Assembly (NCBI RefSeq): GCF_027912495.1
Contig: NZ_CP115463.1
Span: forward strand, 1,883,501 to 1,947,500
Direction: 5' to 3'
Length of the DNA: 64,000 nucleotides
Origin: Caulobacter sp. NIBR1757
GTDB taxonomy: Bacteria; Pseudomonadota; Alphaproteobacteria; Caulobacterales; Caulobacteraceae
Part shown: in pieces, positions 3,694 through 36,198 of the stretch
Layout of the letters: each line of letters opens with the position of its first letter
Position numbering within the stretch: position 1 is the stretch's first letter
Notes under the pieces: model-generated
Databases searched by the model: none
What the model was told of the DNA's origin: nothing
The model's input: the letters and a program-made list of their open reading frames with translations, nothing else
Position numbers and translations under genes: made by a program

Positions 3694-4803
3694 ATGGCGC
3701 TGACTCGCGGCGACGACTATCCGATTCACCAGACAGCGGAGCCGATCGCCTACGGCGGCACCGACCGCAATTTCTACGACCGCTATTTCTTCAACGGCTA
3801 CCACCCGACCGAGGGCGAGGACTTCTTCGCCGCCGCCTTCGGCGTCTACCCCCATCTCAACGTCACCGACGGAGCGTTCGTCGTCGTCCGAAACGGCGTC
3901 GAGACGGCCCTCCACGTCTCGGGCCAGCTGGGCGACCGGATGGACATGGCCTGCGGCCCCCTGCGCATCCTCGTCGTCGAGCCGCTGCACCGGCTGAAGA
4001 TCATCGTCGATTCCCCCGAACACGGCCTCAAGGCCGAGTTGGAGTTCACCAGCCGTTCGGGCCCCATCGAGGAGCCGCGCTTCATCCGCCGCATCGGCAC
4101 CCGCGCCTTCATGGACTACACCCGCCTGACCCAGAACGGCCGCTACACCGGCTGGATCGAACTGGACGGCGAGCGCCGCAGCGTCGATGGCTTCGTCGGA
4201 ACCCGCGACCGCAGCTGGGGCATCCGTCCGGTCGGCGCCCGCGACAGCCAGGACATCATTCCGGCTCCCGCGCCGCAGTTCTACTGGCTGTGGTCGCCCA
4301 GCAGCTTCGAGTCCGGCTCCTTCTTCTTCCACTCCAACGAGGACGCCGTCGGCCGCGCCTGGAACACCCGCGCCGTCTGGGCCCCCGACCAGGCGCTGGA
4401 GGAAGACTTCGAACACCTCAACGGCCAGGCCCAGGTGAACTGGAAATCCGGCACCCGCCACGCCACCGACGCCGTCGTCACCCTGACCGACGACTGGGGC
4501 AAGCCGGCCGGCAAGGTCGAGTTCAAGCCCCTGTATAATTTCCAGATGAACGGCCTCGGCTACACCCATCCCAAATGGAACCACGGCCTGCTGCATGGCG
4601 TGCTGGAGGTGGAGCGCGAGGACATCGTCCTTGCCGACGTCAACCCGACCCTGCCCTGGAACCTGCACGTCCAGGCCCTGAGCGAGGTGACCTACACCGA
4701 CGCCGACGGCGGCGTCCGCAAGGGCAGGGGCGTCCTCGAACAGCTGGTCATGGGCCCACACCAGCCTTCGGGCTTCACCGACATGCTGGACATGGCCAAA
4801 TGA
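3694..4803 (+). CDS. Conserved protein of the DUF7064/AttH-like beta-rich type
   Basis: A 369-residue soluble protein without signal peptide or membrane segments. The sequence is rich in Trp, Tyr and Phe (for example RDRSWGIRP and FYWLWSPSSF) with alternating strands, as in the lipocalin-like AttH/carotenoid 1,2-hydratase fold group; this is a similarity by pattern and not a firm assignment. The ATG at 3694 was preferred over 3664 because GAGGGAAGGAA precedes it. Its stop codon overlaps the ATG of the phosphotransferase gene (ATGA), which in turn overlaps the third gene, so the three products are translationally coupled and probably act on the same metabolite. Biochemical role unknown. Confidence 0.7.
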   Translation: MALTRGDDYPIHQTAEPIAYGGTDRNFYDRYFFNGYHPTEGEDFFAAAFGVYPHLNVTDGAFVVVRNGVETALHVSGQLGDRMDMACGPLRILVVEPLHRLKIIVDSPEHGLKAELEFTSRSGPIEEPRFIRRIGTRAFMDYTRLTQNGRYTGWIELDGERRSVDGFVGTRDRSWGIRPVGARDSQDIIPAPAPQFYWLWSPSSFESGSFFFHSNEDAVGRAWNTRAVWAPDQALEEDFEHLNGQAQVNWKSGTRHATDAVVTLTDDWGKPAGKVEFKPLYNFQMNGLGYTHPKWNHGLLHGVLEVEREDIVLADVNPTLPWNLHVQALSEVTYTDADGGVRKGRGVLEQLVMGPHQPSGFTDMLDMAK

Positions 4804-5813
4804 GCCTGCAGGACCAACTGGAAGCCTATCTGACCCGCACCGGCGGCAAGCCGGCGAAGGTGCATGACCTGTTTCGCATCCCGGGCGGGGCCAGTCGCGA
4901 GACCTACCGCTTCGACCTCGAGGTCGAGGGCAGCCGGCGCGGCATGATCCTGCGCCGCGACCCGGTCGGCAGCCTGATCGACACCGACCGCCGCGTCGAA
5001 TTCCTCGCCTTCCGCTCCTTCTTCGACAAGGGCCTGCCGGTGCCGGAAGCCCTGGCCCTGGAAGAGGAGGGGGCCGAACTCGAACGGCCCTTCTTCATCA
5101 TGGGCCGCATCGACGGCGGCAAGGCCCAGAGCCCCTTCACCCTGCCGCCCTATGGCGAGCACGCGGCGACCATCGGCGAGCAGTTCTTCAGCCATCTGGG
5201 CAAGATCGCCGCCGCCGACCCGGCCACCCTGCCGATCAGCGAGGCCGCCCCGTCGCCGGCCCTCGACGCCTGCTGGTCGAAGGAACTCGACTACTGGGAA
5301 GGCGTCATCGACGAGGATGAGGAACATCCCCAGATGATCGTCCGGGCGGCCATCCGCCGCCTGCGCCGCAACCCGCCGCCGCCGGCCCAGAAGCTCAGCG
5401 TCGTCCACGGCGACTACCGCACCGGCAACTTCATGCACGACGGCAATGGCAGGATCGTCGCCCTGCTCGACTGGGAAATGGCCCACATCGGCGACCCGCT
5501 GGAAGACCTCGGCTGGGCCATCGAGCCCCTGTGGTCCTACAAGGAAACCGACCGCGTCTCCGGCATGGTCCCGCGCGAGACAGCCATCGCCCTGTGGGAA
5601 GCGGCCAGCGGCCTCACGGTCGACCCCGCCGCCTTCGCCTGGTGGGAGCTGTTCGCCTCGGTCAAGGGCGCCGCCATCTGGATTTCGTCGGCCAAGGAAT
5701 ACCGGGCCGGCGGTATGAAGGACCCGGTGCTCGGCCTCTCCGGCTGGTTCACCGCCCGCCGCCAGGACGAGATCCTGGCCAATGTCCTCGCCAAACTGGA
5801 GGGCCTGGCATGA
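4800..5813 (+). CDS. Phosphotransferase family protein (APH/ACAD10-like kinase)
   Basis: A 337-residue aminoglycoside-phosphotransferase-fold protein. The Brenner catalytic loop is VHGDYRTGNF (His-Gly-Asp then Asn) and the metal-binding Asp lies in LLDWEMAHIGDPLEDLGW. The sequence groups with the ACAD10/11 N-terminal kinases and bacterial stand-alone relatives, which phosphorylate hydroxy-acyl-CoAs or other small alcohols, rather than with antibiotic-modifying enzymes. The ATG at 4800 overlaps the stop of the upstream gene, and its own stop overlaps the ATG at 5810. That strict coupling suggests one pathway with its neighbours. Confidence 0.85.
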   Translation: MSLQDQLEAYLTRTGGKPAKVHDLFRIPGGASRETYRFDLEVEGSRRGMILRRDPVGSLIDTDRRVEFLAFRSFFDKGLPVPEALALEEEGAELERPFFIMGRIDGGKAQSPFTLPPYGEHAATIGEQFFSHLGKIAAADPATLPISEAAPSPALDACWSKELDYWEGVIDEDEEHPQMIVRAAIRRLRRNPPPPAQKLSVVHGDYRTGNFMHDGNGRIVALLDWEMAHIGDPLEDLGWAIEPLWSYKETDRVSGMVPRETAIALWEAASGLTVDPAAFAWWELFASVKGAAIWISSAKEYRAGGMKDPVLGLSGWFTARRQDEILANVLAKLEGLA

Positions 5814-6226
5814 CCCCGACCGTCTCCGAACTGCTGCTCGGCAACTTTATCGCCCTGATGGAGCCGCCGCCCCCCGAGGCGCTCGGCGACTTCATGGCCG
5901 GCAAGGTGGCCGTCACCGGCATGATCGCCATGCTCGCCGCCCAGGAAGCCGAACGCGGCGCCGAGGCCCGCATCTGGGAAAACCAGGCCATCCGCGACCT
6001 GCTCACGAGCGGCGGCGCGGCCATCCCCGCCGGCGCCGAGACGGAAAAGGACTACGCCATCTGCGGCCTCGACCGCGTCAACGCCACCCTGCGCAAGGCC
6101 CTGATCGCCCTGCACACCCAGGTGGAAGAGAAGGGCGACCGCGACCTCGACCACGCCATCCTCCGCTTCTACGTCAAGAGCGCCGACATGCGGCGGTTGG
6201 ACATGCCCCCGATGCCGGGGAATTAG
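5810..6226 (+). CDS. Small conserved protein coupled to the phosphotransferase gene
   Basis: A 138-residue, mostly helical soluble protein of unknown function; I see no catalytic motif. It begins at an ATG overlapping the kinase stop (ATGA). Proteins of this kind often sit beside APH-like kinases of the ACAD10 group, so it may be an accessory subunit, but that rests on context only. The gene ends eight bases before a dispersed palindromic repeat. Confidence 0.6.
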   Translation: MTPTVSELLLGNFIALMEPPPPEALGDFMAGKVAVTGMIAMLAAQEAERGAEARIWENQAIRDLLTSGGAAIPAGAETEKDYAICGLDRVNATLRKALIALHTQVEEKGDRDLDHAILRFYVKSADMRRLDMPPMPGN

Positions 6227-6233
6227 CGTCGTT

Positions 6234-6411
6234 CCTTCTCCCGCTTGTCGGGAGAAGGTGGCGGCCGAAGGCCGTCGGATGAGGGCAGCGCCGGCATATT
6301 GTGACTCCGCTCGTTCTGGCGCCGTCCGCGCAGCCGCCAATATTCCGCCTTCCGCTCTGCCCTCATCCGACCCGCTTCGCGGGCCACCTTCCCCCGACAA
6401 GCGGGAGAAGG
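6234..6411. repeat. Dispersed inverted repeat, family A copy 1
   Basis: The left arm begins with the palindrome CTTCTCCCGCTTGTCGGGAG, followed by a GGTGG..CGAAGGCCGTCGGATGAGGGCAGCGCCGGC type segment. The right arm is the reverse complement (CCTCATCCGACC..GGCCACCTTC..CCGACAAGCGGGAG). The middle, about 70 bases, is unrelated between copies. The same element recurs at 27755-27938 and 56048-56224. It carries no gene and resembles a palindromic MITE or REP-type unit. Confidence 0.85.
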
Positions 6412-6431
6412 AATCGGGTCAATCTCCCCCC

Positions 6432-6683
6432 ATGGCCAAACCCATCGCCCTCGACCGCCAGACCACCGACATCCTCGAACGCAAGCTGCGCAAGCACCTG
6501 CAAGACGAATACGGCTTCGAGCTCGGCCAGTTCGAGGCCCTCGACCTCCTCGACTGGCTCGCCGAAACCCTCGGGCCCCTCTACTACAACCAGGCCCTCT
6601 ACGACGCCCAGGCCGTCCTGCGGAAACGCGCCGACGACCTGATCGAGGCGGTCTCGGCCATCGAGAAACCGGTCAAGCTATGA
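6432..6683 (+). CDS. DUF2164 family protein
   Basis: An 83-residue cytosolic protein matching the DUF2164 family in length and content: an N-terminal helix with RKLRKHLQDEYGFELGQFEA, then LDWLAETLGPLYYNQALYDA, the signature of the family. Function unknown. The ATG at 6432 begins at the usual point of the family; there is no good Shine-Dalgarno sequence, and the gene starts 20 bases after the family A repeat. The stop overlaps the start of the next membrane protein by four bases. Confidence 0.8.
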   Translation: MAKPIALDRQTTDILERKLRKHLQDEYGFELGQFEALDLLDWLAETLGPLYYNQALYDAQAVLRKRADDLIEAVSAIEKPVKL

Positions 6684-27737: not shown

Positions 27738-27754
27738 GGGGCCTGCCCCATGCG

Positions 27755-27938
27755 CCCTTCTCCCGCTTGCCGGGAGAAGGTGGCCGCGAAGCGGTCGGAT
27801 GAGGGCAGCACCGGCCTGTGAAGGCCTGGCTGGCGACGCTGCCGCAAATGCTGGTGTTCATGGTCATCTTGATCCGCTGGCGCTGCCCTCATCCGACCCC
27901 CTTCGGGGGCCACCTTCTCCCGACAAGCGGGAGAAGGG
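27755..27938. repeat. Dispersed inverted repeat, family A copy 2
   Basis: The left arm starts CCCTTCTCCCGCTTGCCGGG and the right arm ends CCGACAAGCGGGAGAAGGG. Inner parts GGTGGCC..CGGATGAGGGCAGC and GCTGCCCTCATCCGACC pair as in copy 1. It separates the isomerase gene from the second acyl-CoA dehydrogenase, so it lies inside what would otherwise be one operon. Confidence 0.85.
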
Positions 27939-27957
27939 ATCCGAGAGCGCGGGGCCC

Positions 27958-29166: not shown

Positions 29167-29266
29167 GGCGTGGTCTCCCGGTAGCGTGATTGGCGTCCGG
29201 CGTTGGCGGCCGGTTCGGGCGGGAGATTAGCGGGGGAGGCGGGGAGGGGGAAGGGGATTCAAACGG

Positions 29267-30493
29267 GTGTTTAGCTATGAGTTTGCCAATGATCCCACTG
29301 CCCATCCGCAATTTGCACTTTCGGCGAGAATTCTATCCAATGCCGGCGCTGTGATTGAATTTTCTGGAGGGGGTGAATTGTTGGGTAGAGATCAATCTAG
29401 TGAACTTGCCGTGCTTTTCGAGCACTTGGTCCGTCAAGTTATGGAGCAAGCCTCGTACAAGATCGAAGACCTAGAGCGTTCCCCTCAATCGGCTGACTGG
29501 CGGGTGGATTTCCGATGTTCTCACCCCGGCGAAGATTATGAGCGTTTGATCGACGTAAAGTGGTTGCCAGTCGAACGAGCTAGCGCTTTGCTTATCCGAG
29601 AACTGCTCGGAATTTATCACATGGAGATAGGCTGGGATGTTGGGCTTACCTTTACAATAGTTGTGTCTGCTATCGTGGCCGACAGCATAAAGGAGTGGGT
29701 TGTCGATTCTTATGGGGTACAGATACTTGACCGGCGCGATCTGGTCAAAATGGCGGGCACCGAATATCTCCGAAGAGAGCTTGAGCGCTTTTTTCAACGT
29801 TCCCGAGGTCAGTTGGAAAAGCGGCCAAGTGCGGACGCCGGCTCGCTGGCTGAACATTTAAACGCTGACGCCGAAGCATTCGAACATGTTCAGCTTGCAG
29901 TGGCGAGCGACCCGACCGAACGAAAGCTTCGGGGCGCGGACCTGTGTGCGGAGCTTCGCCGCCACCCGGCCGGCCCCAAGGGCGCGCCAGGCTACGAGAA
30001 GCTATGCCTAAGAATATTCAATTTCCTGTTCTTCGGCGAACTGTCTGACGCGAACGTTGTTAAGCGCACAGATAGCGGTATGGACATATATGATATTGCT
30101 TACCGAATAACAAACAGGACAAGATTTTGGTCGTCTTTGTCTAGAGATTTTCGGTGCAGGGTTCTTTTGGTGGAATGTAAGAACTATTCTCATCCAATTG
30201 AGGCGATGCAGGTATACACTACCGAGAGATATTTGAGTCTGGCCGCTATGAGATCTGTTTGTTTCATTTTGACCAGATTGACGCCAAAACCTCAAGCTTA
30301 CGCCGCCGCCCAAGGTGCGCTAAGAGAGAATGGAAAATTGATAATATTTTTGACGGACAAAGATCTTTGCAAGATGTTGCATCTGAAAGATGATCAGCGG
30401 GCGGCTAATTCGGTAGAGGATCGGGAGGCGTTTGACCCGTCTCTGATGCTCGACAGAGTTATACATAGGGCGCTCGCCCGGATGCCGAGATAA
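29267..30493 (+). CDS. Tandem PD-(D/E)XK nuclease-like protein
   Basis: A 408-residue soluble protein with two restriction-endonuclease-like halves. The first (about 45-165) has Glu52 in FEHLV, Asp81 in WRVDF and Asp96-Val-Lys98 in LIDVKW, followed by LDRRDLVKM. The second (about 240-372) has Glu244 in GYEKLC, Asp273/Asp276 in DIYDIAYR and Glu303-Cys-Lys305 in LLVECKNY, followed by FLTDKDLCKML. Each set fits the Mrr-type order. The start is a GTG at 29267; a TTG near 29379, after GGAGGGGG, is an alternative. The DNA is clearly AT-richer than the flanking genes, a sign of acquisition. It converges on the patatin/exonuclease operon. Nuclease activity is inferred. Confidence 0.65.
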   Translation: MFSYEFANDPTAHPQFALSARILSNAGAVIEFSGGGELLGRDQSSELAVLFEHLVRQVMEQASYKIEDLERSPQSADWRVDFRCSHPGEDYERLIDVKWLPVERASALLIRELLGIYHMEIGWDVGLTFTIVVSAIVADSIKEWVVDSYGVQILDRRDLVKMAGTEYLRRELERFFQRSRGQLEKRPSADAGSLAEHLNADAEAFEHVQLAVASDPTERKLRGADLCAELRRHPAGPKGAPGYEKLCLRIFNFLFFGELSDANVVKRTDSGMDIYDIAYRITNRTRFWSSLSRDFRCRVLLVECKNYSHPIEAMQVYTTERYLSLAAMRSVCFILTRLTPKPQAYAAAQGALRENGKLIIFLTDKDLCKMLHLKDDQRAANSVEDREAFDPSLMLDRVIHRALARMPR

Positions 30494-30657
30494 ATACACT
30501 CAGGATTTCTTCTGAGCATTTCTGGTGCGCCCTATAGGGTGTTAATTTAATTAAAGAGCAGTAGTGTCGCGCAAAATAAATATTTTGATACTGCAGTTCT
30601 TGGCGTCGGGCGTGGTATCAAGAAATATATATAGTGTGTGCCGATTATTGAATGCAT
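30494..30657. terminator. AT-rich gap with two hairpins between convergent island genes
   Basis: CTCAG..CTGAG (about 30509-30526) and CCTATAGG within GCGCCCTATAGGGTGT (about 30527-30542) form short stems, the second followed by TTAATTTAATTAAAG. As both flanking genes converge here, this is a likely bidirectional terminator region. The stretch is too short and too AT-rich to hold a gene. Confidence 0.4.
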
Positions 30658-31242
30658 TCAAGCGGGTGTTTGGGGGCGAGCAATTCGGACGAGGTTGGTG
30701 AGGAGTGAGGCTGTGGCAACCGCATCACCGAGAGCCGTGTGCCTATCTCGCCCTGGAGGAGAGATACCAAAATACTCAAATGCACTTGTAGAGTTGGAGT
30801 CCCAAAGTGGGAGTTGTCCCGAAAGGGAAAGAAATCGGATGACAGATGCGGTGTCCAATACCCTATGGGAGAACCGTTCATCAAACGACTGACCGGCGAG
30901 CCGATATAATCTTTTCAAGAACGAAACATCGAAATTTACATTGTGTCCAGCTAGAACAATGCCGTCCTTCTGATCGCTGCCATCGAAGTTGTCTTGAATG
31001 AAAGTGTCAATAAGCTTAACGGCTTCAGCGGGCTCCACGGCGCTTAGAATATGTTTTTCAATGTCAATTTTGTTTATTTCAAGGGATCGATCGTCAGCGC
31101 ATATCTCGGGTTCGGCAACGTTGATCAGGAATCTCTCTCCGGTGCGTCCGGATTCCCAAAGCACGCCTGCAATCGACAATATACTTGCACTACTCGCGTC
31201 AAGGCCGCCGGTTTCGGTATCTACTACTAGAAGGCGGTTCAC
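30658..31242 (-). CDS. DEDDh 3'-5' exonuclease
   Basis: A 194-residue stand-alone exonuclease of the DnaQ/RNase T fold. All five signature residues are visible: Asp8 and Glu10 in VVDTETGG, Asp105 in HNVNFDVSFL, then His168 and Asp173 in HTALGDA. It should remove 3' nucleotides from DNA or RNA with two metal ions. The start is GTG at 31242 with GGAG seven bases before it. It lies 21 bases after the patatin gene on the same strand, making an operon. AT-rich like its neighbours. In this context it may be part of a defence or nucleic-acid-processing module rather than the replicative proofreading subunit. Confidence 0.85.
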   Translation of the reverse strand: MNRLLVVDTETGGLDASSASILSIAGVLWESGRTGERFLINVAEPEICADDRSLEINKIDIEKHILSAVEPAEAVKLIDTFIQDNFDGSDQKDGIVLAGHNVNFDVSFLKRLYRLAGQSFDERFSHRVLDTASVIRFLSLSGQLPLWDSNSTSAFEYFGISPPGRDRHTALGDAVATASLLTNLVRIARPQTPA

Positions 31243-31263
31243 AATAATCTCCGATGGTAGGCG

Positions 31264-32499
31264 TTAGGCGGGCAGAATATGGGTTTGACGAAGCTGGGTG
31301 TGTTCGGCTTCGTCAATCATTGTTTCGCCGGGCCGGCGGGGGTCAGGGCGATCGCGCAGTGTTCTTAAAGCGTCGTTGTACCCATGGGTGATGTTCTGTG
31401 CGGCATGTTTGGGGGCGAAGTTCAACACATCTCCCAAAGAGACTGATGGCTCAATCTCAATCAATGGAACCGCGACGCGAGGTCGAGGCCCGCCAAGTCT
31501 CTTGAATTCCTCGGTGATTATCGCAGTAAGATCAGATTTCTGTTCATCGCGAAAATCTTGAGCTTGAATCCATTCAGCTATTCTATCAACTTTGTTATTC
31601 TGCTCTTCGACTTCGCGATTAATTCTGTTCCATCCATCAACGATTGGCTTCATGTGCACCCAGCTGAACACATCCATTGTCCGCATAAGGATGCTCACGA
31701 AATCGAACCCGTCGGATTCTCCGTGGAATACAGTGGGATTGTCGAGTTTTACGCAGAACGCTACTCGTGGAATGCCCAAGCCCGATTGCTCTAAGAAGCG
31801 ATTGAAGTAAGCGGCCTCGCGTGTGGGGGTGTTATTTCCTACGCCGCCATCAACAAACCATGATTTCTCCGGAACGCCATCGTAATTCGATGATATTTCA
31901 ACAGGCGGGAATATTATTGGGATCGCGGCAGAAGCGACTAGTGCTTGAACCAGCATCTCGTCATTTTCAATTCGTCGGAGGTGCTTGAGCCGTCGCTTTC
32001 GCACTTCAATTTTTCCATCTTCATGCAAGAATCCGTCGATCAAATCTGACCTGTAGAAGGCTTTCGGGGTGCCTGTAGAGTAGTCGGTCGTTGCCACTAT
32101 GAGGGGGCTGTGTAGGCGATCCAGGGTGGCATTTTCTGCGACTAGCTTCTTGATCGCGGTGTTGGTGTAGAGCGAGAAGGGTTCACTAGACCCGAGTAAG
32201 CTCTTACCGAGCTTGACGGCCGCAGCAAGCTTTGGGTGTTTGTTTTTCGTGCCCAAGATGCGCTGATTGTCGATTTCGAGCCAGAACTTGATGAGGTCGT
32301 CTGCTCCGCCAGAGGCGAGGATATAGGCGTTTAGTGCTCCGGCCGAAGCTCCAACATAGACAACGGGATTGGTGAGGCCACGCAGCCGTCTGAAGAGCTC
32401 GATAGCCTTTGCTACCCCGGCCCCATAGGCTCCCTTCGCACCGCCGCCGCTGAGGACGAAGCAGTCGTATTCCGAGGGGGCAGAAGTTGGCTTGATCAT
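31264..32499 (-). CDS. Patatin-like phospholipase
   Basis: A 411-residue patatin-fold lipase. The oxyanion motif GGGAKG is at 18-23, the nucleophile elbow GASAG at 50-54 with Ser52, and the catalytic Asp in DGG at 217-219, so the Ser-Asp dyad is complete. There is no signal peptide or membrane helix, so it is made in the cytosol and would attack the inner membrane from inside. The C-terminal 150 residues (from about 260) have no recognisable domain. It is the first gene of an operon with the DEDDh exonuclease. Patatin lipases act as membrane-degrading effectors in several phage-defence systems, but no signal synthase (CD-NTase) is present nearby. Confidence 0.82.
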   Translation of the reverse strand: MIKPTSAPSEYDCFVLSGGGAKGAYGAGVAKAIELFRRLRGLTNPVVYVGASAGALNAYILASGGADDLIKFWLEIDNQRILGTKNKHPKLAAAVKLGKSLLGSSEPFSLYTNTAIKKLVAENATLDRLHSPLIVATTDYSTGTPKAFYRSDLIDGFLHEDGKIEVRKRRLKHLRRIENDEMLVQALVASAAIPIIFPPVEISSNYDGVPEKSWFVDGGVGNNTPTREAAYFNRFLEQSGLGIPRVAFCVKLDNPTVFHGESDGFDFVSILMRTMDVFSWVHMKPIVDGWNRINREVEEQNNKVDRIAEWIQAQDFRDEQKSDLTAIITEEFKRLGGPRPRVAVPLIEIEPSVSLGDVLNFAPKHAAQNITHGYNDALRTLRDRPDPRRPGETMIDEAEHTQLRQTHILPA

Positions 32500-32950
32500 G
32501 CCAAAGCGTCGGGCCGCAATCCTCTGGTGTCAACAGCCTCACATTGTAGATGGTGGCGGAGCAGTCGAAGAGGGGACATTTGCTTGCTTCATTAATCAGC
32601 GCCTGATCCCTCGCCGACATCTCACATCAGGTGCCGATCGCCGTCGCCGACCTGCAGGGCAAGTCGTGGTTACCGATTGAGGCAGCGGCCTAGGCGTGAC
32701 TGGGGCACAGCGGATCTCCAGCTCGCTTAGTTGACTTCCACCCCACCCACACCCCACATCTCCTGCATGTTCCGTGCAACCTTCCAGCGTTTCCGGCATC
32801 ACGGCGGTAGCCTGCAGGCAGGCCTCTAGCCCCGGGCCATCCTTGCGCCGCGCGCACAGGTCCGGGGTTTCTACCCTTCCGCCAAATCCAAATCCCATCT
32901 CCCGTCTCGCCCAGCGGCGAGGCGTGGCCGTTTGCGAAGACTCCATTGCC
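32500..32950. other. Gap at the right edge of the AT-rich island
   Basis: No complete gene is recognisable. The left part should carry the promoter of the patatin operon. At 32631-32693 a GC-rich frame reads PIAVADLQGKSWLPIEAAA and stops, which looks like the tail of a chromosomal gene cut off when the island arrived. The remaining 250 bases up to the rnk-like gene are GC-rich and empty. Confidence 0.4.
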
Positions 32951-33388: not shown

Positions 33389-33405
33389 GGGCTTGCTTCA
33401 TTCTC

Positions 33406-34386
33406 CTGTCATCCTTCGGTTGGGCGGAGCCCAATCCGGAGGACCCACCGTTGGGGCGGAACCGGCTGGCGTTCGGGGTGGCCCCGCGGACGAAGCCGGT
33501 TGTCCAGACGCCAGGCGCGTGGCGGACGGGTGGGTCCTCCGGATCGCTGCGCGACCGAAGGATGACAGGGTTGGGGGTGTCGCTGGCGAGCCAGGCCTTC
33601 ATCCGCCTGTCATCCTTCGGTTGGGCGGAGCCCAATCCGGAGGACCCACCGTTGGGGCGGAACCGGCTGGCGTTCGGGGTGGCCCCGCGGACGAAGCAGG
33701 TTGTCCAGACGCCAGGCGCGTGGCGGACGGGTGGGTCCTCCGGATCGCTGCGCGACCGAAGGATGACAGGGTTTGGGTTGTCGCTGGCGGGTCAGGCCTT
33801 CATCTCCATGTCATCCTTCGGTTGGGCGGAGCCCAATCCGGAGGATCCACCGTTGGGGCGGAACCGGCTGGCGTTCGGGGTGGCCCCGCGGACGAAGCAG
33901 GTTGTCCAGACGCCAGGCGCGTGGCGGACGGGTGGGTCCTCCGGATCGCTGCGCGACCGAAGGATGACAGGGTTGGGGGTGTCGCTGGCGAGTCAGGCCT
34001 TCATTCGCTTTCCCCCTGTCATCCTTCGGTTGGGCGGAGCCCAATCCGGAGGACCCACCGTTGGGGCGGAACCGGCTGGCGTTCGGGGTGGCCCCGCGGA
34101 CGAAGCCGGTTGTCCAGACGCCAGGCGCGTGGCGGACGGGTGGGTCCTCCGGATCGCTGCGCGACCGAAGGATGACAGGGTTTGGGGCGCCGCTGGCGAG
34201 TCAGGCCTTCATTCGCTTTCCCCCTGTCATCCTTCGGTTGGGCGGAGCCCAATCCGGAGGACCCACCGTTGGGGCGGAACCGGCTGGCGTTCGGGGTGGC
34301 CCCGAGGGCGAAGCAGGTTGTCCAGACGCCAGGCGCGTGGCGGACGGGTGGGTCCTCCGGATCGCTGCGCGACCGAAGGATGACAG
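33406..34386. repeat. Tandem array of five 163-bp fold-back units
   Basis: Five near-identical units lie at 33406-33568, 33607-33769, 33808-33970, 34016-34178 and 34224-34386, separated by related 38, 38, 45 and 45-base spacers. Each unit opens with CTGTCATCCTTCGGT and closes with ACCGAAGGATGACAG; further in, ATCCGGAGGACCCACC pairs with GGTGGGTCCTCCGGAT, and CTGGCGT pairs with ACGCCAG, so each folds into one long hairpin. Copies 1 and 4 have AAGCCGGTT and copies 2, 3 and 5 AAGCAGGTT. Long ORFs run through in several frames but only because there are no stops. No transposase adjoins. Confidence 0.92.
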
Positions 34387-34399
34387 GGAGGCGGCGGAT

Positions 34400-34936
34400 C
34401 TAGTGGGGGGCGCCCGGGGGTGGGGGGAGGGGTTTTCCGTCGGGGCCGAAGGGCATCATGTTTTCGTAGGGCGTCGTCGGTTCCTGGCCGGGGGGGACGT
34501 TGGCCGGGGCGGGGCCGCCGCCGGGGCCTAGGGACTTGATGTAGTCGTAGAGGGCGGCCTTGTTGGCCGGGGTCATGGCGTGGACGCTGGGCCAGGGCAT
34601 GGGCGGCAGGCCCTGGCGGGCGCCCAGCATGGCGACGAACTGGTCCTTCGACATGGCCTGCACCGTCAGCCGCAGGTTGCTGGCGTAGGTCACGCCCCAG
34701 GGGCCGCGATAGCCGACCGGGTTGCCGGTCAGCCACTGGGCCTCGCCCGGGGTCTTGCCGCCGGAGGGGGCGTAGCCGGGGGTGTGGCAGTCGTTGCAGC
34801 CGCCCGTGAGCACGATGTAGCGGCCGACGGCGATGGCGTCCGGGCCGGTGACCTCGGTGGTGGCGGGCGGTTTCGCGGCGCCGCAGGCGCTGAGGCCGAG
34901 CGTGGCGGCGAGGCCGATGGCGAGACGTCTGATCAT
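34400..34936 (-). CDS. Lipoprotein cytochrome c, class I
   Basis: A 178-residue exported haem protein. The signal peptide ends in a lipobox (LSAC, Cys18), so it should be lipid-anchored. One haem-binding CXXCH is present (CNDCH, residues 47-51), with the distal Met probably in the GLPPMPWPSVHAMTPA segment (about 110-125), and a proline-rich tail. It is a low-complexity single-haem c-type cytochrome that could pass electrons to an oxidase or dehydrogenase; partner unknown. The gene ends 14 bases from the repeat array and is divergent from the histidine kinase gene. Confidence 0.85.
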   Translation of the reverse strand: MIRRLAIGLAATLGLSACGAAKPPATTEVTGPDAIAVGRYIVLTGGCNDCHTPGYAPSGGKTPGEAQWLTGNPVGYRGPWGVTYASNLRLTVQAMSKDQFVAMLGARQGLPPMPWPSVHAMTPANKAALYDYIKSLGPGGGPAPANVPPGQEPTTPYENMMPFGPDGKPLPPPPGAPH

Positions 34937-35124
34937 GATGGCTGTTCCCCCGGTTCGGGAACAGGAGGCCGCGCGGCGAAGGCCGGGTCAAGGGCTTTCG
35001 GCGACCGTTGTGCGGGGAAATTGGCCGCGGCCCGGGGCTCTCGCACCCCGCGCCCGACCGCGCTATAGAAGCCTCCCCGCCGTTGGCCCTTTGCGCCGAA
35101 CGCCGCCCGCGTAGAGTTCCGCCC

Positions 35125-36198
35125 ATGACCGACCAGGACGACCCCACCGGCCTGCTCGCGTCTCCGGACCTGGCGCAGGTTCTCGAATCCGACCGATTCC
35201 GGCAGTTCCTCGACCAGGTGCCGATCGCCATCGCCGTGGCCGACCTGCGGCCGGACGAGCGCATCTGTTACGCCAATGTCGAGTTCGAGCGGCTGACCGG
35301 GCTGGCGGCCGCCGATCTGGAGGACCGGCCGTGGTCGGCGCTGGCCGGGACGGCGACGCGGGACGGGCGGGCGCTGGCCGAGGCGGTGACGGCCGAGAGC
35401 GACTATCTGGGCGTCTTCGCCTTCGAGCCGGCCGGGGCGGTGGGCTCGGTCGATGTGTGGAGCAACCTGATCGAGGACGAGAGCGGCGAGGCGGTGTTCC
35501 GGCTGATCGCCCTGGTCGGGGCCGACGGGCGAGGCGAGGTCGACCTCACCGCCTATGAACTGCGCATCCAGGAGAAGGACACCCTGTTGCGCGAGCTGCA
35601 GCACCGGGTGGCCAACAACCTGCAGATGGTCACCGCCCTGATCCGCATCGAGGCGCGCAATGTCTCCGAGGCCGATGCCGGCCGGCCGCGCGACGACCGC
35701 TTCGACCGGCTGGCCGGGCGGATCGAGGCCATGGGGCTGCTCTATCGCTCGCTGTCGGGGGAGGGGGCGGGCGACACCGTCGACCTGGGCGCCTTTCTGT
35801 CGGGGATCGCCTCGTCGGTGATGCAGGCCCATGCGGTGGAGGGCATCCACCTGAACCTGCAGGTCGACAGCTGGCCGGTGTCGATCAATGTGGCCATGCC
35901 GACCGGGCTGGTGGTCAACGAGCTGCTGACCAATGCGCTGAAGCACGCCTTCGCCGGGCGGGACGGCGGGACGATTACCCTGAAATGCCTGGTCGACGAG
36001 GACGGCTGCCGGGTGGTGGTGGCCGACGACGGGGTGGGGCTGGCCCCGGGCGTGGTCTGGCCGCGGCCGGGCAAGCTGAGCAACCTGATCGTGCAGTCGC
36101 TGCGCCAGAACGCCAAGGCGCGGGTGGAGATCGAGACGGCGCCGGGCGAGGGGATGACGGTGACGGCCTGGTTCAGCCGGGAGGATGGGTTGGGGTAG
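35125..36198 (+). CDS. PAS-containing HisKA_2 sensor histidine kinase
   Basis: A 357-residue cytosolic kinase with no membrane helix. Residues about 28-135 form a PAS domain (FLDQVPIAIAVADL, ICYANVEFERLTG). The dimerisation and phosphoacceptor region is of the HisKA_2 type with His160 in LLRELQHRVANNLQ, and the ATPase domain has the N box near 264-273 (VNELLTNALKHAF) and a G box (VADDGVGLAPG). HisKA_2 kinases are common in Alphaproteobacteria in general stress and cell-cycle signalling. No response regulator adjoins, so it is an orphan kinase. Confidence 0.9.
   Translation: MTDQDDPTGLLASPDLAQVLESDRFRQFLDQVPIAIAVADLRPDERICYANVEFERLTGLAAADLEDRPWSALAGTATRDGRALAEAVTAESDYLGVFAFEPAGAVGSVDVWSNLIEDESGEAVFRLIALVGADGRGEVDLTAYELRIQEKDTLLRELQHRVANNLQMVTALIRIEARNVSEADAGRPRDDRFDRLAGRIEAMGLLYRSLSGEGAGDTVDLGAFLSGIASSVMQAHAVEGIHLNLQVDSWPVSINVAMPTGLVVNELLTNALKHAFAGRDGGTITLKCLVDEDGCRVVVADDGVGLAPGVVWPRPGKLSNLIVQSLRQNAKARVEIETAPGEGMTVTAWFSREDGLG

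Follow-up and report, generated by a model that had tools for sequence, protein, structure and literature searches.

An AT-rich island at an operator-like site

The DNA considered here is a 64,000-nucleotide stretch of Caulobacter sp. NIBR1757 (contig NZ_CP115463.1, positions 1,883,501 to 1,947,500; hereafter the window), from a 4.47 Mb genome that forms a single contig. From base 29273 to about base 32500 it holds an AT-rich island, from which three intact open reading frames (ORFs) were recovered, encoding an Mrr-like nuclease, a DEDDh exonuclease and a patatin-like phospholipase (Table 1). On balance, we favour the explanation that two independently mobile cargoes make up the island, the nuclease gene on the one hand and the patatin-exonuclease pair on the other, which share one insertion spot next to the operator of an acyl-CoA dehydrogenase gene.

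The GC content of the nuclease segment is 49.3%, that of the exonuclease gene 49.9% and that of the patatin gene 52.3%, compared to 68.5% for the window. At third codon positions (GC3) the three genes reach 53.1%, 47.7% and 57.0%, respectively, whereas the flanking acyl-CoA dehydrogenase and histidine-kinase genes have 92.8% and 91.9%. The foreign origin put forward in the initial annotation, which a model made from the letters of the sequence, is thus supported by composition. Pfam confirms the reported position of the island, with two acyl-CoA dehydrogenase genes on the left and an rnk-like gene with a GreA/GreB C-terminal domain on the right, and the proposed domain identities hold as well, all scoring above their Pfam cut-offs: Mrr_cat with 32.1 bits (cut-off 21), RNase_T with 37.1 bits and Patatin with 107.3 bits (cut-off 27.7). 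The patatin and exonuclease genes are co-directional on the minus strand, with a 21-bp gap, while the nuclease gene is convergent with them on the plus strand.

Table 1. Features of the island, with positions in the window
Feature	Position	Strand	Basis
Palindrome ATTCAAACGGGTGTTT, operator-like, of the acyl-CoA dehydrogenase gene; the island's left edge	29257..29272	.	Motif conservation; end of the G014 alignment
Segment that carries the nuclease gene (1,383 bp, 49.3% GC), bounded by the operator-like repeats	29273..30655	+	
Mrr-like protein of 370 aa, start codon TTG, with two sets of PD-(D/E)XK-like motifs	29381..30493	+	Mrr_cat, PDC-M36A and phrog_31260 matches
Second copy of the operator-like site, ATTCAAGCGGGTGTTT; overlaps the exonuclease gene at its 3' end	30656..30671	.	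Genome-wide exact-match count
DEDDh exonuclease, 194 aa	30658..31242	-	RNase_T match; conserved motif residues
Patatin-like phospholipase, 411 aa, first gene of the pair	31264..32499	-	Patatin match; conserved motifs

The repeat and the insertion spot

The two operator-like sites form a direct repeat, identical in 15 of 16 positions, that separates the nuclease gene from the gene pair. All 23 of the same-genus loci read have the motif TTCAAAC-N3-5-GTT[T/C] upstream of this dehydrogenase gene, and it came up in 0 of 4600 shuffles; a further genome of the genus, G015, which is 70% complete and lies outside the loci read, gave no match. In Pseudomonas, an acyl-CoA dehydrogenase gene is repressed by the TetR-type regulator PsrA, whose site is given as C/GAAAC-N2-4-GTTTG/C (both statements from PMC13104628). 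The conserved motif resembles this site, and we regard it as a putative PsrA-like operator. The 16-bp direct repeat was also considered as an integrase attachment site, a reading that we rejected because the palindrome is conserved before the neighbouring gene in all 23 same-genus loci.

Exact matches to the pattern ATTCAARCGGRTGTTT, which was composed after both copies were known, number only two in the 4.47 Mb, namely the two repeats, 1,399 bp apart; with up to two mismatches there are 8 matches, compared to 1 for a backwards control. The ATTCAAGCGGGTGTTT copy continues like the operator flank of the nearest relative, G014, over 18 of 20 bases (E 0.11). The exonuclease runs on beyond the point where conservation with its relatives ends, and its final residues are encoded within this copy. 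Up to base 29272 the flank shows about 90% identity to that of G014, and the alignment resumes at 35040. The last bases shared are ATTCAAACGGGTGTTT, and the insert therefore starts at the far edge of the operator-like site. At the same operator edge G014 carries a different AT-rich gene (319 aa, 45% GC; L010 4767-5726). Two of the 24 same-genus genomes read, this one and G014, thus hold AT-rich cargo at the operator edge, and the other 22 have no AT-rich stretch adjoining the operator. Near the right border, two short stretches at 32628-32670 are like the histidine-kinase gene near 35215 and its G014 copy; they are perhaps a remnant.

The surroundings invite a metabolic explanation, namely that the lipase is tied to fatty-acid oxidation and that the exonuclease is an unrelated DNA-repair enzyme. 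It draws on the acyl-CoA dehydrogenase neighbours and on the PsrA-like operator at the island's edge. However, none of the 23 same-genus loci that have the operator holds the lipase in the DNA read, the lipase is foreign by both GC and GC3, and its apparent partner elsewhere is the exonuclease. We consider this explanation distinctly unlikely.

The patatin-exonuclease pair

The lipase carries the patatin motifs GGGxxG, GxSxG (as GASAG) and DGG. Ser52 is present in 119 of 120 aligned sequences, our own included, the remaining one having a gap, and Asp217 in all 120; about 180 C-terminal residues lie outside the Patatin match. In the exonuclease the DxE, D and H-x4-D motifs lie within the RNase_T domain, as in DEDDh enzymes, and Asp8, Glu10, Asp105, His168 and Asp173 are each kept in 117-120 of 120 aligned sequences; a 3'-5' exonuclease activity is predicted. 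Its nearest solved relatives are RNase T, a PolC-type chain and a 3'-5' exonuclease.

Apparently the two genes form a conserved module. We compared 120 of 312 patatin homologs with 120 of 268 exonuclease homologs and found that, besides the window, 14 patatin/exonuclease pairs sit on contigs of identical length, while 120 control shifts of the lengths, by 1-60 bases either way, gave a mean of 0.97 such pairs and a maximum of 4. Above 6 kb there are 10 pairs (11 with the window) compared to a shifted-control mean of 0.025. The source tags are identical in 13 of the 14 pairs, and the 14th pair has one tag in common. Two of these contigs are 2,048 and 2,184 bp long; the genes take up 1,809 and 1,800 bp of them, leaving less than 400 bp, and must therefore be close neighbours if the length match is real. 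The distances within the two sets of proteins are correlated (r 0.79, n=15, Mantel p 0.0002, the floor of 5,000 permutations), a correlation that shared descent of whole genomes may raise.

The module is rare: it was found only here among 289 genomes of the class. With a limited number of candidates scored per genome, the patatin profile (E 1e-40) found this genome only among 289 class, 299 phylum and 398 order genomes, which are overlapping sets, and the exonuclease profile (E 1e-20) this genome only among the 289. A scan of genome contigs gave at least 80 patatin loci. Of the 80 kept, one alone (L014, Hyphomicrobiaceae) is both close and full-length; the remaining 79, at 23-33% identity, are distant patatins, which we left out as pairing evidence. 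A check by profile found none of the 80 to carry an exonuclease of this family. Among mobile elements, the patatin has no match in phage records, two distant matches in viral contigs and three in plasmid records, the latter covered to at most 46% and without useful context. The exonuclease matches one phage record and one plasmid record (H4), and on H4 neither annotation nor profile places a lipase beside it. In open-licence PMC, none of the titles and abstracts listed by our searches reports a patatin-DEDDh exonuclease pair; two of the papers listed (PMC12657218 and PMC12881547) do mention patatin-like phospholipases.

A more distant relative of the exonuclease (37% identity; viral contig L137, 7201-8555) overlaps by 4 bp the gene of a 261-aa protein that has hydrophobic stretches and no family match. 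Around them lie restriction-type genes, namely those of HNH nucleases and a MrcB_N/NOV_C protein. From this one case, the exonuclease may be able to pair with other membrane proteins as well.

The pair might also be a toxin-antitoxin-like or addiction module that mainly maintains itself, with phage defence secondary or absent. A two-gene operon, correlated divergence and the patchy spread described above would fit such a module; however, L014 has a full-length patatin on a contig without the exonuclease, and, with no search aimed at that point alone, we know of no DEDDh exonuclease that acts as an antitoxin. We hold this to be rather unlikely.

A probable stand-alone tandem nuclease

The initial annotation had started the nuclease at GTG 29267. 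This start is too far upstream and falls within the left palindrome; the homologs begin at TTG 29381, seven bases behind GGAGGGGG, and we have corrected the protein to 370 aa. It carries two motif sets, Asp43/Asp58-x-Lys60 and Asp238/Glu265-x-Lys267, both of which we interpret as PD-(D/E)XK motifs; Pfam recognises only the first half of the protein. Asp43, Lys60, Asp238, Glu265 and Lys267 are invariant in 10 of 10 aligned sequences, our own included, while Asp58 is not among the invariant residues. A protein search that scored about 8,000 candidates listed 10 proteins at E 1e-3, ours among them; the patatin search likewise scored about 8,000, and both counts are lower bounds. The nuclease also matches phrog_31260 (151 bits) and, over residues 242-378 of the long reading (about 135 residues only), the PADLOC candidate PDC-M36A (46.4 bits).

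In viral contigs the family is found at 12 loci. In eight of them the gene stands between the tail genes S and V of P2-like phages, as identified by Pfam in L118 (Phage_tail_S on one side, Phage_base_V and Apex, GPW_gp25, Baseplate_J and Tail_P2_I on the other) and by tblastn with the L118 proteins in the remainder. The independent cases are fewer than eight, because L119 and L120 look like near-copies and three others are imperfect: L117 stops short of V, and L124 and L127 hold further ORFs in the S-V gap. The slot is orf30, one of three sites at which acquired genes are common in P2-like phages (PMC3091744); the defence hot spot tested by Rousset et al. lies elsewhere, near cos (PMC9122126). 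The nuclease family occupies the orf30 position, and the copy in the window sits elsewhere. In all 12 viral copies the GC content of the gene is below that of the rest of the locus, by 6-31 points. A PADLOC scan made of L119 only found Septu PtuA/PtuB at 4722-6499, shortly before the tail S gene of this nuclease-bearing contig; L120 has the same layout.

The nuclease matches 28 plasmid records, one of them over at least 80% of its length, and 25 of the 28 are predicted to be conjugative. On plasmid At of A. fabrum C58 the relative lies 3.6 kb from GajB/GajA (Gabija) and two genes from a SIR2-like gene that scores 24.3 bits, compared to a Pfam cut-off of 24.5. The sole other match among the 289 class genomes, in G242, has a GC content of 41%, compared to 64% and 66% in the genes on either side. 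A profile search of the 12 viral loci, of both plasmid stretches and of the stretch in G242 found neither a patatin nor an exonuclease of these families.

The protein is most likely a stand-alone mobile restriction or exclusion nuclease that would cut incoming or replicating foreign DNA. There is no methylase among the island's three genes, and restriction without a partner methylase would therefore be modification-dependent or otherwise self-sparing. Mrr-type restriction endonucleases are alike in their Mrr_cat domain and in the lack of a methylase in the island. In the Mrr layout a winged helix precedes the catalytic domain, whereas here Mrr_cat is N-terminal, has no winged helix before it and is followed by the second nuclease-like motif set. 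As to the candidate system PDC-M36, the C-terminal part of our nuclease matches a part of its component A (PDC-M36A); the island gene stands alone, whereas the 'M' in the label presumably denotes a multi-gene candidate.

One system or two cargoes

The initial annotation had suggested that the three genes may be a single defence locus, with contents like those of phage-defence or abortive-infection modules. Their defence-like character is supported; a single three-gene locus is not, given the convergent nuclease gene, the repeat between it and the pair, and nuclease relatives that lack the other two. It had called for a search for the three genes together in other genomes, and this joint occurrence was looked for and not found; patatin and exonuclease apparently recur without the nuclease. 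One three-gene system, in which the lipase and the two nucleases act together, would agree with the equally low GC and direct adjacency of the three genes in one island. One nuclease homolog and one patatin homolog among those listed both sit on contigs of length 5,519; their source tags differ, however (jgi and ena), and for that reason we do not count the coincidence as support. The nuclease gene is convergent and bracketed by the operator-like repeat, and in the DNA read around its relatives (viral contigs, plasmids and G242) neither a patatin nor an exonuclease of these families is present. A joint system is thus very unlikely in our estimate, and the two are probably independent anti-virus cargoes.

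Several observations weigh against our interpretation. Adjacency of the patatin and exonuclease genes is read directly in this genome, and elsewhere the pairing is inferred from identical lengths, among which roughly one match of short contigs could be fortuitous; no partner stands among the exonucleases listed for 105 of the 119 other patatins listed. The L014 patatin is 47% identical and nearly full-length on an 11.3-kb contig without the exonuclease, and close exonuclease relatives (46-47% identity) occur without a lipase in viral contigs L128, L131, L133 and L149, where each stands after a putative DNA methylase, a function read from sequence. Nor did we see the pair in a defence neighbourhood outside this genome. 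Only 9 of 120 patatins showed a strongly hydrophobic stretch in a hydropathy scan, so that a general membrane anchor is lacking. As to the nuclease, four of the 12 viral loci (L116, L122, L123 and L126) lack the S-V setting, 50,697 phage records gave no match, and the annotated neighbours of the A. leguminum plasmid copy are metabolic, transport and regulatory genes. Finally, the 319-aa cargo gene of G014 has no Pfam or PADLOC match.

Relation to known immune systems

Lipase effectors of bacterial immunity are switched on by cyclic nucleotides, and the patatin could be an effector of the CBASS type (cyclic oligonucleotide-based antiphage signalling system), fed by a synthase encoded elsewhere in the genome. 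Profile comparison places a cUMP-AMP-activated phospholipase (31.4 bits) and CapV (20.7 bits) among its solved relatives, and the patatin scores 47 bits with the PADLOC model 'Effector, Phospholipase'. This resemblance is not specific, because VipD (31.3 bits) and ExoU (28 bits) score as high. The lipase reaches 46.1 of the 200 bits of the CBASS_lipase equivalog, and there were no SMODS matches in the 4.47-Mb genome with this one family model, which matched 4 of 14 control genomes. That the patatin is such an effector, fed from a distance, is in our view very unlikely. CBASS membership of the island was rejected on the same equivalog score and on the lack of a CD-NTase among its ORFs, in agreement with the initial annotation. 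Nor did Pfam, PADLOC or NCBIfam find a reverse transcriptase, a TIR or a known antitoxin domain in the three proteins, and we rejected retron, Thoeris and known toxin-antitoxin systems; the first two had already been set aside in the annotation. The anti-phage phospholipase equivalog DS2_1 (NF053870) is not reached either (24.2 of 400 bits).

The CBASS phospholipase effectors CapV and CapE share with our lipase the Patatin domain, the Ser-Asp dyad and a proposed role as a membrane-damaging effector; here, in contrast, there is no CD-NTase, the score is far under the equivalog cut-off and the apparent partner is a DEDDh exonuclease. That exonuclease shares its D-x-E, D and H-x4-D motifs and a full-length match with RNase T, the PolC exonuclease domain and CRISPR-associated DEDDh proteins; unlike known DEDDh exonucleases, it is paired with a lipase and falls under the cut-off of all 25 NCBIfam models listed. 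The diDNases, NrnC-like DEDD dinucleases, are comparable in that their genes are tied to genomic islands and phage-defence genes; they differ in being NrnC homologs of Actinomycetes and Clostridia, and the main text of that source contains neither patatin nor phospholipase (PMC11706625). Each domain of the island is known already, and the nuclease has a candidate-defence relative in PDC-M36A.

Other features of the window

No tRNA or known RNA family was found in the window. A promoter scan gave 3 sites compared to 3.2 in shuffles, that is, no excess, and there are 6 terminator-like sites compared to 3.7 in shuffles (sd 1.8). An interspersed, partly palindromic repeat of roughly 180-200 bp lies at 27752-27941 and is present in several places, on both strands, in this genome, G014 and G017. 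A local array of partly palindromic repeats, also roughly 180-200 bp, occupies 33396-34400.

A possible mechanism and its implications

By inference, an abortive-infection or toxin-antitoxin role of the pair is likely. The patatin would be a membrane-damaging effector, held inactive in healthy cells, with phospholipid cleavage as its likely output by analogy with the lipase effectors of CBASS, although secreted effectors with equally high scores have this fold too. The DEDDh exonuclease would bind or trim nucleic-acid 3' ends, of phage DNA or of an oligonucleotide, and thereby gate the lipase; it might sense DNA ends, remove an activating oligonucleotide or act as an antitoxin. Infection would then release the phospholipase activity and end the infected cell. 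We take the exonuclease as the best candidate for the switch because no SMODS-type cyclase was found in the genome. More tentatively still, and with the balance leaning somewhat against it, we propose that patatin and exonuclease make up an immune module of two genes that has yet to be described. In it, control of a membrane-killing lipase would lie with an exonuclease in place of a nucleotide cyclase, and the exonuclease would be a swappable controller. The latter is suggested by the L137 relative, because it overlaps a hydrophobic protein amid restriction-type genes. As for the order of arrival, the pair may have settled first, and the nuclease segment would have come between it and the dehydrogenase gene later, duplicating the operator.

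For the nuclease, membership in a mobile family of stand-alone tandem nucleases that occupies a known phage cargo slot tells where to seek its targets. The operator-edge site, common to this genome and its nearest relative, is one at which small cargoes can settle without breaking a metabolic gene. If the proposal for the pair is true, the lipase would travel with a DEDDh exonuclease in place of a cyclase, which would amount to a different switch for a membrane-damaging effector, contained in two small genes.

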